Below, piece by piece: positions 1 through 43,661 of a DNA stretch of 43,661 nucleotides. The position numbers and the translations under genes were made by a program. The notes under the pieces are model-generated. The model had not been told where the DNA came from. It ran no database searches and saw only the letters and a program-made list of their open reading frames with translations. The stretch covers positions 1-43,661 of IMG/VR virus record IMGVR_UViG_3300040801_001816, one strand, 5' to 3'. Every line of letters begins with the position of its first letter. Within the stretch, counting starts at the first letter, position 1. Source of the DNA: a virus.

Positions 1-893
1 CCTCCGTACGTATTAGCCCCCCAGGAAGGCCAACGGGTTTCAATCTCTTCAAGATCATACTCTATCGACCCCTCAGACCAATCAATAAAAATTTGTTTGC
101 CTTCATTGCTGCCGTTAAATTGGTGGTGTAGAGCCATGCCGACAGTACGCCACCCAAGCCCATTTACAAACCCGTCGGGGTCCAACGCGTTTAACATGCT
201 GACCAATTTATCGGCCTCAATATTTATTGGGGGTACGAAGTTTTCAAAACTTGCGACGCCCTCGAGTTCACCCGCTTTGTTAAAACCCCCTTGCGGGGTT
301 ACCCTCCGAGACCGGCCCCCCGTTTGGGTCCATTGCTCGGGCGCAAGGCTTGTAAAGTACTCAAAAAGCGCGTTAATTTTATCGCCGGTTAAAACAGGCA
401 AGTCTAAGATGTCAAAGTCGTAAAGCTCGCCGCCGGTCCAACGGTACTCTTTTTTAGTTTTAGGGTGGACCCCATAGGCGACCCATTGCTGCCCCGTTGC
501 TTTGATTTCGATTTGGTGGGTGTTCCCCTCGGAATCTACGAACTTTTGAGACTTATCCGCCCCCAGCCCGCCCTTTGGCGCTGCGCAAGGAATGAGCGCC
601 CTCGGCGCGTCCCCCAGCCTAACAGGGGCGGGGCCTATATTAGTATGGCACCACTCTATAAGTTTTTTAACAACGGATGCGTCTTTAACGTCAATGTCGA
701 TACCAGGGGCGCAGGCCCCTAAAACACCAAACCCCCCATAATAGGGGCTGTGCGTCCATTTTATGATGTCTTCGCGGGTAGCTTGTATATTTTGCCAACC
801 TCGGGTCCTGGGGTCTTTCTCGCCGCGTTTGATAGGCACAACACTAAAGCCCGCCTCGAAAAGGGGCATCCCGTGGGTGTCTTTTATGCCCAT
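1..893 (-). CDS. Primase-polymerase/helicase fusion, N-terminal part (gene crosses the contig join)
   Basis: This is the N-terminal 297 codons of a 760-residue replication protein whose remainder is at the other end of the window. The start is the ATG at 891-893, which overlaps the end of the upstream zinc-finger gene. The translation shows an archaeo-eukaryotic Prim-Pol domain. The two catalytic aspartates are D66 and D68 in PGIDIDV. They are followed by an RLGDAPRAL segment and a QIEIKATGQQ..GVHP..Y.W segment, which are the later Prim-Pol motifs. After about residue 225 comes a PriCT-2-like linker domain (WRTVGMALHHQF, FIDWSEGS). The frame is open to base 1 and continues in frame at 43651 if the 10-base end repeat is collapsed. 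The family makes primers and short DNA at phage origins. No strong ribosome-binding site is visible, so translational coupling to the upstream gene is likely. Confidence 0.88.
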   Translation of the reverse strand, partial: MGIKDTHGMPLFEAGFSVVPIKRGEKDPRTRGWQNIQATREDIIKWTHSPYYGGFGVLGACAPGIDIDVKDASVVKKLIEWCHTNIGPAPVRLGDAPRALIPCAAPKGGLGADKSQKFVDSEGNTHQIEIKATGQQWVAYGVHPKTKKEYRWTGGELYDFDILDLPVLTGDKINALFEYFTSLAPEQWTQTGGRSRRVTPQGGFNKAGELEGVASFENFVPPINIEADKLVSMLNALDPDGFVNGLGWRTVGMALHHQFNGSNEGKQIFIDWSEGSIEYDLEEIETRWPSWGANTYG

Positions 894-36145: not shown

Positions 36146-37468
36146 TTACCATTTATTTAAAACGTTAGCTCTTTTGTTTGTGGTGTCTTCGGGGAAAAAC
36201 CCATTGCGCAGTATCGAGGCCAAGGAATCCGGCGCATCGTCCGGCTCTTCGCCTTCCACGTACCCGCAAACCTGGTCTATGTACCTCTCGTCTGTGTCGT
36301 GCGTGAAAACAACGTCGTCCCAATACTCCGAGATATACGAAACGATCTTTTGGTGTTTCTTCATTGACTCATGGTACGCCTCTACGTTAAGCCCCTTTAC
36401 CACCCCGTCCCTATCCCGTAGCTTTTCGGGTAGGTACTCGTTTTGGTCATTATTATTTTCACAAAATACTTTTTTAACACCCATCGCGCGACACATCGTT
36501 TTCATAAACGGTATCTTTAGTTTAACGTGCTCCGTAAAAACCCAGCCCTTTACCTGTATTTTACGGTCCGAGGGCCGCCGTGAGGCGATAGTAAAAGCCA
36601 TGGTGTCCTCACCCTTGTACTTGGCGTCTATGTGCGCCAGAACCCGCTTAGAACCTTTCTGCCAGTCGTCAAAGATTGGGTCCTGGAAAAGTAAGTCTTC
36701 ATCAGTGATGTGTTCTAAAAAATAATTGGCCCGCCATAGGCTGCGCGTGGTGGTCTTTAGCTTATCCAAGAGCGCTTCGTCCGATAGGATACCCACATCC
36801 TCAACCGAGTATTTTTTTATGGCTATCCCCGCGCCGTCTATGAAGCTCCACCCGTCGTCCTTATGCCAAGGGGTCCCCACAATCATTACCTGCTTACCAG
36901 GGTCGATTATGTTAGTTAAAATTTCTCGCAGGTTCTCAACGGTTTTTTCGCGCTTAGCTGCGGAATACCTGTCGTTTTTTGTCATTATATCGTCGCATAA
37001 AATTTTATCGTAATGCGATCCAGTCGCCACGGTATCAATCCCATAACAATCGATATTACCCTCGTTGGTCGCTTGCGCTTTGAAATTATACGCTACTGAA
37101 TCAGCACGATCAACCAGCGCCTTGGGCGGTACCTTGTGGGCGTAGGTAAAAATGGCGACGACTTCGGGGGTTTTCAACCCGCGTTTTATAGTGGCCAAGG
37201 TGTTAACCGCAGCTTTCCAGGTCTCACGGATTAGCGCTATCCGGTCGTTAGGATTAAAAAGCAGATACCAAATAGCCCCTGTTACCGTTATCGCCGATGT
37301 CTTATAGCTCCCACGGTGGCACTGTTGCCCCGTATGCCCCGCCGATTGCCAAACCTCCCGTATCCACTTATCGTGTATAGGTTTTAAATCAGTAAAGCCT
37401 ATTAAGTGCCCGATAAGGCGCGGTTCGTTTTTAATCCGTAAAAGCGAGGACTCAGTTAGCTTAAACAA
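36146..37468 (-). CDS. Terminase large subunit (440 aa)
   Basis: The ATPase has a Walker A-like HRGSYKTSA at about residues 52-60, a Walker B KILCDDIMT near 155-163 and a coupling motif VGTPWHKDDGW. The C-terminal RNase H-like nuclease has D in LAHIDAKYKG, E in VFCENNND and D in DAPDSLASIL. The start is a TTG four bases after the upstream gene, with no strong ribosome-binding site, so coupling is likely. The length is normal for this family. It cuts and pumps the genome into proheads. Confidence 0.92.
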   Translation of the reverse strand: MFKLTESSLLRIKNEPRLIGHLIGFTDLKPIHDKWIREVWQSAGHTGQQCHRGSYKTSAITVTGAIWYLLFNPNDRIALIRETWKAAVNTLATIKRGLKTPEVVAIFTYAHKVPPKALVDRADSVAYNFKAQATNEGNIDCYGIDTVATGSHYDKILCDDIMTKNDRYSAAKREKTVENLREILTNIIDPGKQVMIVGTPWHKDDGWSFIDGAGIAIKKYSVEDVGILSDEALLDKLKTTTRSLWRANYFLEHITDEDLLFQDPIFDDWQKGSKRVLAHIDAKYKGEDTMAFTIASRRPSDRKIQVKGWVFTEHVKLKIPFMKTMCRAMGVKKVFCENNNDQNEYLPEKLRDRDGVVKGLNVEAYHESMKKHQKIVSYISEYWDDVVFTHDTDERYIDQVCGYVEGEEPDDAPDSLASILRNGFFPEDTTNKRANVLNKW

Positions 37469-37888: not shown

Positions 37889-38238
37889 AGAGCGCCCTCT
37901 CTTATTAATGATGTATACTTTACCCCCTCGAGGGTGATCTTTAATAACTTTTGCTTTGTGCGCGCAAATATCGCCGCCTCTAGCCTGTTGCTTATTGATA
38001 AATTACAGATAATCCAAGGGTGCGGCGAAGGGTTAGCGCACTGGCCCTTATCGATAAACCCCACATACGGGACCCCCTCTATGACTAAATCAACTTCACT
38101 GGGGGGCCTAAGCTTAAAATTGAGCCGTTGATACTCGGCGGCGAAGTTAACCTTAAACGCCAGGTGGTTAAATGTTCGGTTCCGGGCGTTGTACGGGTTA
38201 ACAGCGTAGCACATAACCGAGGTGCATTTATTTTTCAT
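37885..38238 (-). CDS. Hypothetical protein, permuted relative of its neighbour (117 aa)
   Basis: There is no membrane segment. The protein carries RPPSEVDLVIEGVPYVGFID near residues 44-63 and, later, LLKITLEGVKYTSLIREG near 98-115. These are the same two motifs as in the membrane-anchored neighbour, but in swapped order. Both ends overlap other genes. It lies between the terminase subunits, so a link to packaging is possible but not shown. Confidence 0.75.
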   Translation of the reverse strand: MKNKCTSVMCYAVNPYNARNRTFNHLAFKVNFAAEYQRLNFKLRPPSEVDLVIEGVPYVGFIDKGQCANPSPHPWIICNLSISNRLEAAIFARTKQKLLKITLEGVKYTSLIREGAL

Positions 38239-38917
38239 TGAAAATCTTAGCTAAACGGTTTTCGGTTTCTTCGGTCATGCGCGGCTGGTCGTCCCCTGGG
38301 TCCTTATCGAAAAGCCCAAGGTACTCATTTAACATTTTAAGGGCGTTGTGCCTGTTAACCAATTTAATAGACGAAAAAGTAAAAGGCCCTGAAGACTTCC
38401 GCTCAATCCCCTCTATACATAGCCGCAGTTCTTTAGGTATGTTGTTTAGATCGACCCCCTGGAGCGTTATGTACTCCCCGTCGCGCTCTGTCTCTAGGGT
38501 GTTGGGTTTTATATTACCAGATGAATCAATAATATCCGCAGGGTCGAAAAACGCCTGTACAGCTAGCATTTTGATTGCCTTCTCTTTGCACTCTTCGCGT
38601 ATATCCGCAAACCACTGTTGACGGCAGGCTCTTATAACACGTTGTATCTTTTCGCGCTTTAGTAATCTTGACCCATATACCGCCGCCGCTTCGCGCGTTA
38701 AGCGGTTATTCGCCGCTGCCGCTGCGTTGGTGGCGTGCCCGCCGTTCAATATATAGTTGCCCACAAAGCGCAATTCCGCTATAGCCAGTTTGTCCTCAAC
38801 GTGTTGGGGTATAACGTTTTGTAGCTCCTTCTTATCCAGAATCATTGTTTTGCCCTCAACAACGAGTCTGTTAAAATAGGACGTTTTACCTCGATTAGCG
38901 GGTCTAGTTTTTAGCAT
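38228..38917 (-). CDS. Terminase small subunit, Terminase_2-like (229 aa)
   Basis: Residues about 40-95 (KLAIAELRFVGNYILNGGHA, then TRLTREAAAVYGSRLLKR-like helices) form the helix-turn-helix DNA-binding domain of Terminase_2 small subunits. The segment DPADIIDSSGNIKPNTLE near residue 125 is also typical. It is the first gene of the late operon. The large iteron region lies just upstream and could be its binding site (pac). Confidence 0.85.
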   Translation of the reverse strand: MLKTRPANRGKTSYFNRLVVEGKTMILDKKELQNVIPQHVEDKLAIAELRFVGNYILNGGHATNAAAAANNRLTREAAAVYGSRLLKREKIQRVIRACRQQWFADIREECKEKAIKMLAVQAFFDPADIIDSSGNIKPNTLETERDGEYITLQGVDLNNIPKELRLCIEGIERKSSGPFTFSSIKLVNRHNALKMLNEYLGLFDKDPGDDQPRMTEETENRLAKIFNEK

Positions 38918-39093
38918 TTGCCTACTTTCTATAGAAAATCACAACGTATACCCAAGTTATCATATTTTTAACCGCAGCGCAAGCGATAAACACCCAAATC
39001 GTCGGGATACCCGTTTTTTCAAAAAATTAAGTCTAAGTGCCGCAACGACTTACCAATATAGGCCGCCACATATTGATATTACGGAAAAAAGTT

Positions 39094-39142
39094 GTCCCGC
39101 TTTGTCCCGCTTTGTCCCGCCTCTGTCCCGCCTAAATCCCAC
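39094..39142 (+). repeat. Left iteron array (GTCCCGC x4)
   Basis: GTCCCGC starts at 39,094, 39,104, 39,114 and 39,125 (periods 10, 10, 11), followed by AAATCCCAC at 39,134-39,142. A solitary fifth copy is at 39,212-39,218. The 10-11 bp period places the sites on one face of the helix. Confidence 0.95.
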
Positions 39143-39166
39143 TTCAAAAAACTCAAATTTTTCGTG

Positions 39167-39198
39167 TAAGTCGTTGCCTTTAAACGACTTATTTTTTC
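39167..39198 (+). terminator. Plus-strand terminator-like hairpin
   Basis: TAAGTCGTT and AACGACTTA (9 bp, perfect) enclose a 7-base loop and are followed by a T-rich run. A smaller hairpin CGGG-ATA-CCCG with six T residues lies at 39,003-39,019. Both face rightward, although no rightward gene lies before them. Confidence 0.5.
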
Positions 39199-39253
39199 GG
39201 TTTTTTGATTTGTCCCGCTTCTCCCAAATTATATCCCTCTATAATATAAAACA

Positions 39254-39293
39254 CATTCACTACATAACATATTAACGTTAAAAACAGTGAATG
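39254..39293. repeat. Central dyad: CATTCACT/AGTGAATG around TTAACGTTAA
   Basis: Perfect 8-bp arms (39,254-39,261 and 39,286-39,293) enclose an AT-rich loop with the palindrome TTAACGTTAA at 39,272-39,281. The centre (about 39,273.5) agrees within a few bases with the centre of the flanking iteron arrays. Confidence 0.9.
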
Positions 39294-39402
39294 ACCTTTA
39301 TCCCGTGTATAAATATAAAATGAATATGTATAGACTGACTTTTTACCTCTCATAAGTACCATATTTTCCAAGGGGTTGGTAATCTGGACACCCCTCTATT
39401 TG

Positions 39403-39461
39403 GTGGGATTTAAGCGGGACAAAGCGGGATTAAGGCGGGACAAAGCGGGACAAAGCGGGAC
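39403..39461 (-). repeat. Right iteron array (GCGGGAC x5), inverted relative to the left array
   Basis: GTGGGATTT at 39,403-39,411 is followed by GCGGGAC/T at 39,414, 39,424 (variant), 39,435, 39,445 and 39,455 (periods 10, 11, 10, 10). The array is the reverse complement of the left one with one extra copy. Confidence 0.95.
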
Positions 39462-39482
39462 AGTTTTAAGTACTTTTTTACC

Positions 39483-39520
39483 ATATAGACCCACCTATAT
39501 AGACCCCTCCATATAGACCC
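39483..39520 (+). repeat. ATATAGACCC direct repeats (x3, 14-bp period)
   Basis: Copies start at 39,483, 39,497 and 39,511, and CCTATAT follows. They are a second, independent family of sites next to the right iteron array. Confidence 0.9.
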
Positions 39521-42261: not shown

Positions 42262-43661
42262 CTAAAAAATGTCTTTAAACTCTTTTAGGGGGTTATAGCT
42301 CGTTTTTAAATGTATCTGATCCCCTGGTGTCTTCGCGGGGTGGTACCATACATAAGCCCTCGACCCTTCGTCAAGGCGTATGCGTTTACAATAATAACCC
42401 CTGTCTCTTAGCGCTCTTGTGAGGGAGCGTTGGGACACCTCGCCGTCGTTAAAATCGGGGGCGTAGTTACTAAGAGCACCTAAGGCGCCCTCGGTATCGA
42501 AAACGCGGGGGGCCTCCTCCTCAAGCCAACCGGTCAGCGCGTCAACCCCTGGGCCTAGCGAAGCCTGCACCATCTGGGTTTTGGTCTCAGTAACAGGGGC
42601 TCGCCTAAATTCCGCGTCGTTAACCGGTAGCGTTTTTAAGTAGTGAAAAAGCTCCGCTATGTTAGCGGGGTCTTCTTTCCAGGTTTTTAACGCGTCTATT
42701 TTAGAGTCGGGCAACGGATTTTCGGCGCCTTTCATCGCGTATATACGCCGCTCGTTCACATCGTCAATAGGTAGCGCGTCGATGTTGTTGGAGAATAACA
42801 AAAAGTTAGCGTACACAATCCCTGTGTAGCTGTCAAAACCTTTTTGCTGTATATTCGCCGAGGTGTCCGTTAATAAGCTTTTCATCCGCTCCCAAAATTG
42901 GTACTTGCGATCACCTGACGCGGCTTTAATCTCTTGCACGACAGCTATTAGGCATTTATCTAAAAAACCGTTGAACCTGCCCTCGATGTCGTCGCGGCTA
43001 ACGTCGTGGGTGTTGTGGCCGCCGACCACGAGGCGCAGCACTTCAAAAAGTAACCCCCGGCCCGTGCCCGTTACGGGGGTTATGTTTATGGGTGTTACAA
43101 AGGACCTGACAAAGGGGCGCTGCACTATGCGAGCGAGCCACTGTAAAAACCAAGCACGCTCAGTCTTTACCGGGAAAATGTGCTCTAATAGTCCTATAAA
43201 AGGCCCTATGCTTTCGGCCCCGCTAGTCTCTTTGTGCGGGGGGAAATAAAAGGTGTTTATGTATAGGGAGTCGTCGTCTAGCGCCCCAGGTCGGCGACAA
43301 AATCGTTTACCGCCCGGGTGATACACGTACCCCGCAAAATGCCTGGTGTTTTTAGAAGCCTTCCAAACGTCCACCAGGGGCTCGACCCTGATGTCTCCGT
43401 TTAGATCCAAAGACTTATAGATGTACCCCGCGTTGTGCTCCTTAAACGCTCTTAATGTGCGCCTGGGGGACCTGTGCAACGGCAACCCCGCGTCGTGTAC
43501 CTCGGTACCGTCCGGCAGCTCTACAAGCGCAAATCGCTTTTCCCAGTCCGATAGTTTTTTGCTTTTTAGCCTAAGTGTCGGATCCGTCACGCTCTTTTTT
43601 TCGGTGACGGCGTTATACATGGATACTATAGTCGCGGCGGTTACTGGCTGCCCTCCGTACG
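42262..43661 (-). CDS. Primase-polymerase/helicase fusion, C-terminal part (SF3/D5-like helicase)
   Basis: This is the C-terminal part of the fusion that begins at 893 and enters here across the join. Codons upstream of the internal ATG at 43620 (Y-G-G-Q-P-V-T-A-A-T-I-V-S) are open and continue the PriCT-2 domain. The rest resembles the DUF5906/D5-type SF3 helicases of phage primases. It has a P-loop-like TPVTGTGRGLL (about residues 489-499 of the fusion), a Walker B-like LIAVVQEIK, and a sensor segment LLFSN..ALPIDD.NERR. The P-loop has arginine where SF3 helicases normally carry the catalytic lysine. The C-terminus (about 100 residues) looks like a winged-helix or DNA-binding tail. The TAG stop lies just ahead of the HNH gene. 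Expected role: unwinding and priming at the phage origin. Confidence 0.85.
   Translation of the reverse strand, partial: YGGQPVTAATIVSMYNAVTEKKSVTDPTLRLKSKKLSDWEKRFALVELPDGTEVHDAGLPLHRSPRRTLRAFKEHNAGYIYKSLDLNGDIRVEPLVDVWKASKNTRHFAGYVYHPGGKRFCRRPGALDDDSLYINTFYFPPHKETSGAESIGPFIGLLEHIFPVKTERAWFLQWLARIVQRPFVRSFVTPINITPVTGTGRGLLFEVLRLVVGGHNTHDVSRDDIEGRFNGFLDKCLIAVVQEIKAASGDRKYQFWERMKSLLTDTSANIQQKGFDSYTGIVYANFLLFSNNIDALPIDDVNERRIYAMKGAENPLPDSKIDALKTWKEDPANIAELFHYLKTLPVNDAEFRRAPVTETKTQMVQASLGPGVDALTGWLEEEAPRVFDTEGALGALSNYAPDFNDGEVSQRSLTRALRDRGYYCKRIRLDEGSRAYVWYHPAKTPGDQIHLKTSYNPLKEFKDIF

Follow-up and report, generated by a model that had tools for sequence, protein, structure and literature searches.

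The element at 39.09-39.46 kb of IMG/VR virus record IMGVR_UViG_3300040801_001816 (43,661 bp; this whole sequence is called the window below) is, judging from sequence comparison, very probably a phage replication origin that works like the origins of phage-inducible chromosomal islands (PICIs) and Staphylococcus aureus pathogenicity islands (SaPIs). Established here are the repeats with their symmetry and core, a full-length primase, the arrangement seen in relatives, and a joint distribution of iteron words and primase types. A first-pass annotation of this DNA had proposed an origin with iterons bound by a Prim-Pol/helicase, a proposal that comparison supports best: mirrored iterons lie 3' of the primase in most relatives, one word family spans unrelated terminases, and the experimental priming site of phage NrS-1 falls inside that phage's array. 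The annotation had also named conservation in related phages as a check, and the array architecture is indeed kept in them.

Mirrored iterons around an A+T-rich core

The left array holds four exact GTCCCGC iterons in 10-11 bp phase, just as first described (39094, 39104, 39114 and 39125; Table 1). The five GCGGGAC iterons described at 39,414-39,461 have the correct coordinates and four are exact, but the copy at 39424 reads GCGGGAT. The innermost iteron of each arm is degenerate (ATCCCAC/GTGGGAT), both differing at the same two positions, and the 51-nt arms at 39092-39142 and 39403-39453 are 84% complementary. Of the copies of TGTCCCGC in the 43,661 bp, nine lie in the array and a single one outside it (reverse, 8812). 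The core had been called AT-rich, and its stretch at 39226-39325 is indeed the third-highest 100-bp stretch of the genome (76% A+T; mean 51%).

Three independent levels of symmetry had been claimed. All are present with the centres given for them, namely 39272.5 for the adjoining AAATCCCAC/GTGGGATTT pair, 39273.5 for the inner arms and 39276.5 for the palindrome, but they are not fully independent: the first two levels are one, because AAATCCCAC and GTGGGATTT are the innermost in-phase members of the iteron arrays. Inverted 8-mer matches single out the array as the genome's top window, with 24 per 600 bp where the median is 2 and the runner-up elsewhere has 9, and the 1-kb region holds 26 inverted 8-mers against 5.2 ± 2.2 in 100 shuffles, none of which reached 26. 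The region thus lies far above shuffles; the inner two levels are individually modest and weaker. In post hoc comparisons, 0.6% of 2000 shuffles had an 8-bp inverted repeat whose centre fell within 1.5 bp and 1.75% a 10-bp palindrome within 4.5 bp of the centre; none had both. An Rfam scan returned only MIR7533, which at 33.9 is far short of its gathering score of 230 and arises from the long inverted repeat.

Arrays beside primase and helicase genes in other phages

Further support for the origin comes from relatives chosen by their primase. A tblastn search with the window primase found homologues in 408 phage records, the best in Casjensviridae. The comparison covered 21 loci (L numbers or phage names); two of these (L015 and SSL-2009a) came from the motif search itself, and several relatives derive from related metagenomes and are not independent. 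In 15/21 loci, or 13/19 without the two found by motif, the fetched locus is densest in inverted repeats just 3' of its primase. Arrays stand immediately or nearly immediately 3' of the gene in L003, L015, L097 and NrS-1; in L016 and L017 the densest window is further downstream. The words vary by genus: TTCGGACC in BcepNazgul, TTGTAAC in Chi, YSD1 and Stilesk, ACTGTCAC in AhaSv and Suzuki, CCTACGCAA in JS26, CCCTAAG in Smarc1 and AGTGACGTT in Acinetobacter phage 4316.

NrS-1 is especially informative. Between its primase and terS lie 11 copies of GTTACACTT (6 forward, 5 reverse), which form the inverted-repeat maximum of that genome (34, median 3). The only TTTGGTTA in the 36.8 kb of NrS-1 read falls inside this array, and TTTGGTTA is the sequence at which the PrimPol of this phage primes in experiments and which has been proposed to set where genome replication begins (PMC8718748). 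Like the window, NrS-1 has the order primase, iterons, terS, with many copies in both orientations in A+T-rich DNA. The Prim-Pol/SF3-type primases (SF3, helicase superfamily 3) are homologous: the solved primase chains 6k9c/6k9e, assigned to NrS-1 by a 100% match, are matched by the window helicase region at E 1e-29. Unlike in the window, where the word is TGTCCCGC, the NrS-1 word is GTTACACTT and its arms are interleaved. The role of TTTGGTTA is seen for NrS-1 only; in the window, the symmetrical GTGGGATTT words are candidate start sites. The annotated open reading frame (ORF) NRS1_29 overlies the GTTACACTT array (L088, 17055-17456) and is probably no gene.

Among the close relatives (53-61%), mirrored TGTCTTG words are found in L016 and L017 (57-58% primase identity), in L089-L092 and L095 (59-60%) and in the TerL relative L003; L097 (53% primase identity) carries TGTCCCGT. 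Terminases fall in PHROG 38 in the window and L003, 9 in L016, 2 in L015 and 24361 in L017. All five nevertheless carry TGTCTTG or TGTCCCG words, and since four terminase classes share this word family, the word follows the primase and not the terminase.

A motif-only scan of IMG/VR for TGTCCCGCNTTGTCCCGC returned 41 stretches. Where a helicase or primase neighbour was recognisable, the array lay within 400 bp of its 3' end in 24 of 25 loci, which include Escherichia coli Dhillonvirus and helicases of AAA_25 type that carry a Prim-Pol or Toprim domain. These phages share with the window the GTCCCGC heptamer, the 10-bp phase and the position at a helicase-primase 3' end, but their ATPase (AAA_25) is unrelated, most of their arrays have one orientation, and no clear A+T-rich core is present. 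The 10-bp-phased TGTCCCGC in L011-L053 stands at the 3' end of genes of two different ATPase classes, AAA_25 helicases and DUF5906 primases, by shared ancestry or convergence. In Dhillonvirus genomes, the noncoding gap that precedes the tape measure gene holds another GCGGGAC array (FJ750948.2, SSL-2009a, 11.5-12.2 kb; L020, 7237-7490); in SSL-2009a it is the top inverted-repeat window of the genome and may be a second origin or have another function.

The first-pass annotation saw its main alternative in a packaging site, and the array could be where packaging starts, a pac or cosB-like site recognised by TerS. TerS does adjoin the array, terS-side arrays also occur in L003, L015, L017, NrS-1 and Acinetobacter phage 4316, and the iterons of BcepNazgul, Suzuki, Stilesk and Smarc1 have an annotated cos overhang within a few hundred base pairs. 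This alternative is weakened, however, by a word family that tracks the primase across four terminase classes, by Chi and BcepNazgul, in which terS is ~10 kb off and the array is still 3' of the primase, and by the arrays at helicase 3' ends in Dhillonvirus and AAA_25 phages. A directional packaging start also has no need of opposite-polarity arms around a 260-bp A+T-rich core, and we consider a packaging function improbable. Origin iterons and a cos or pac site might instead sit in the same noncoding region, which is compatible with an origin and fits the cos sites beside iterons in these four Casjensviridae-type records, but no cos or pac was identified in the window; such a dual element seems unlikely here.

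A very improbable reading makes the array a transcriptional control region, with operators for a phage repressor or activator before the late operon. Its 0.8-kb noncoding gap does lie upstream of a TerS-led operon, with other repeats close by (CATATAGACCC x3 at 39481-39520), but promoter- and terminator-like sites in our scans show no excess over shuffles, and it would be atypical for operators to comprise nine copies in helical phase, split between two opposed arms around a melting core and kept 3' of primase genes.

The candidate initiator and known origins

The presumed initiator of the origin is the primase-helicase. Its last ~75 residues are predicted as helix-strand-helix-helix-strand-strand, a winged-helix topology, and the AlphaFold model of this C-terminal part is of moderate quality (pLDDT, predicted local distance difference test, 73); the model of the full SF3 region (pLDDT 53) was too poor for use. 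Residue 413 (numbered within the fragment window:42262-43620, minus strand) lies in the predicted wing and is Arg in 2/2 phages with CCC iterons and Gln in 8/8 with TTG iterons. Arg usually prefers G and Gln prefers A. The match, which reflects few independent events, is no more than suggestive of iteron binding by the primase. The idea was formed on four sequences; L097 came later and fitted, and L096 did not, so that residue 413 fails as sole predictor of the iteron word.

Several observations weigh against an origin of this kind or against its proposed initiator. Between the primase stop and the array lie 2.8 kb that hold other ORFs. Four of the 21 loci (phiA034, FoX4, VP5 and RDJL3) are without such an array, and that of BcepNazgul, for which we had considered a top-of-genome claim, is not the inverted-repeat maximum across its whole genome. 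The cos sites near iterons in Casjensviridae imply that origin and packaging signals may share a region. The winged helix is a moderate-confidence prediction, and in a Foldseek comparison with the PDB the matches to winged-helix proteins were all weak (E 0.006 or worse). The Arg/Gln match comprises two CCC phages and related TTG phages, with a naive chance of 1 in 45 that ignores the tree, and L096 combines Gln413 with a weaker array built on a different word, CTCGAAAA. GC skew, proposed earlier as a check, gave the origin no support: its cumulative minimum is at ~1.5-1.8 kb, a divergent-gene boundary, and it does not change at 39.27 kb. As the skew follows gene orientation, it is uninformative on the origin.

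In PICI origins, two iteron sets flank an A+T-rich region 3' of rep (PMC6092414), the SaPI Rep reads its iterons through a C-terminal domain (PMC7581432), and pri-rep-ori can be followed by terS (PMC6092414, PMC7581432). The candidate origin agrees with this scheme, but it belongs to a full-size phage that encodes capsid-side genes, a terminase, a polymerase and an SSB of its own; the Prim-Pol is fused to an SF3-type helicase, the iteron word is another one, and 2.8 kb separate the array from the presumed initiator gene, where the PICI/SaPI origin is immediately 3'. Because it is a full phage and its array is not immediately 3' of the gene, we do not file the element as a PICI origin.

Two other initiators combine comparable domains. 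P4 alpha has a Toprim primase, an SF3 helicase and a C-terminal winged helix that binds origin repeats in one protein (PMC4234260); the window protein likewise joins primase, SF3 helicase and a (predicted) winged helix, but its primase is a Prim-Pol. ORF904 of pRN1 has Prim-Pol, SF3 and a C-terminal winged helix, with the origin 3' of the gene (PMC4234260), and thus resembles the window in predicted architecture and in the position of the candidate origin. Unlike the window, pRN1 needs one long stem-loop and not iterons; we considered and rejected a cruciform or hairpin origin of this type, as the arms are 260 bp apart and iterons fit better. An origin of P4 type has two separate repeat regions, ori and crr. 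No second array was found in the window, where TGTCCCGC occurs once outside the array.

The proposed origin would work as follows. The primase-helicase would bind the TGTCCCGC iterons through its C-terminal winged-helix-like domain, and from each of the two opposed iteron sets a helicase ring would be loaded towards the A+T-rich core. Once this had melted, the Prim-Pol domain could start DNA synthesis on both exposed strands, presumably bidirectionally, with priming perhaps at the GTGGGATTT words where the core meets either arm. Replication would be extended by the phage's own family-A polymerase together with its SSB and SNF2-type helicase.

Most tailed phage replication origins are unmapped. 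More broadly, and tentatively, autonomous tailed phages that use Prim-Pol/SF3 initiators could in general have origins of PICI type, in a range that runs from NrS-1 through Casjensviridae to the window's clade; the iteron word would evolve with a readable code (Arg-CCC, Gln-TTG), and primer-independent DNA synthesis would start on both strands at the GTGGGATTT pair flanking the core. We hold this generalization to be possible but rather doubtful. The results here offer a checkable rule: mirrored iterons around an A+T-rich core, 3' of a primase-helicase and often at the genome's inverted-repeat maximum, would point to the origin and its initiator at once. The rule extends to NrS-1, for which much in vitro work on the PrimPol exists, and the specificity of initiator for origin can be tested directly through the Arg/Gln-iteron match. 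The window would also qualify a 2018 statement that PICIs alone among known bacterial replicons share this origin layout, and it hints at a source from which satellites may have acquired the layout. Such phage origins may have been described earlier in literature beyond the open library that we searched.

Gene setting of the element

The ends of the record carry a 10-bp direct repeat, CCTCCGTACG (1-10 and 43652-43661), and joining the overlapping ends restores a single 760-aa primase gene, complement(42262..43661, 11..893); the record is thus most likely complete, a closed circular genome. On the minus strand, HNH and small ORFs follow the primase; next come the noncoding gap of 0.8 kb that holds the array, then TerS, and after two further small ORFs TerL. 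Divergent from the primase are genes for DUF2800, SSB (Enc34), DNA polymerase A and an SNF2-type helicase. With TerS, TerL, polymerase A, SSB and a long late-gene-like block, the window does not show the incomplete virion gene set of a PICI satellite. The window region has no DNA similarity to named phages, and TerS used as a query yielded no confirmed relative.

Table 1. Features of the putative origin and of neighbouring genes in the window.
Feature	Position	Strand	Details
Left iteron array	39094..39131	+	GTCCCGC x4 at 39094, 39104, 39114, 39125; spacing 10, 10, 11; exact
Left innermost degenerate iteron AAATCCCAC	39134..39142	+	In phase (11 bp), inside 51-nt arm
Extra iteron TTTGTCCCGC in spacer	39209..39218	+	Overlooked in first-pass annotation; iteron at 39,212
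A+T-rich core between arms, presumed melting region	39143..39402	.	Densest 39226-39325, 76% A+T
Inner inverted repeat CATTCACT (39254-39261) / AGTGAATG (39286-39293)	39254..39293	.	Centre 39273.5
Palindrome TTAACGTTAA	39272..39281	.	Centre 39276.5
Right innermost degenerate iteron GTGGGATTT	39403..39411	-	In phase (11 bp)
Right iteron array	39414..39461	-	GCGGGAC at 39414, 39435, 39445, 39455; GCGGGAT at 39424
Primase-helicase gene, 3' part (SF3-type DUF5906, C-terminal winged-helix-like domain)	42262..43661	-	Presumed initiator
Primase-helicase gene, 5' part (Prim-Pol, PriCT-2)	11..893	-	Across joined ends; 760 aa in all
TerS	38228..38917	-	Next gene 3' of array; gene start 177 bp beyond left array
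TerL	36146..37468	-	PHROG 38

A 60-aa ORF (39189-39371, minus strand) overlaps the core and is probably spurious. The left array is flanked by GCAACGACTTAC (39042-39053) and its inverse GTAAGTCGTTGC (39166-39192); the right copy, GTAAGTCGTTGC, is also a terminator-like hairpin followed by Ts on the plus strand, with no obvious gene upstream of the hairpin. Just beyond the right array, (C/T)ATATAGACCC is repeated three times with 14-bp spacing (39481-39520).
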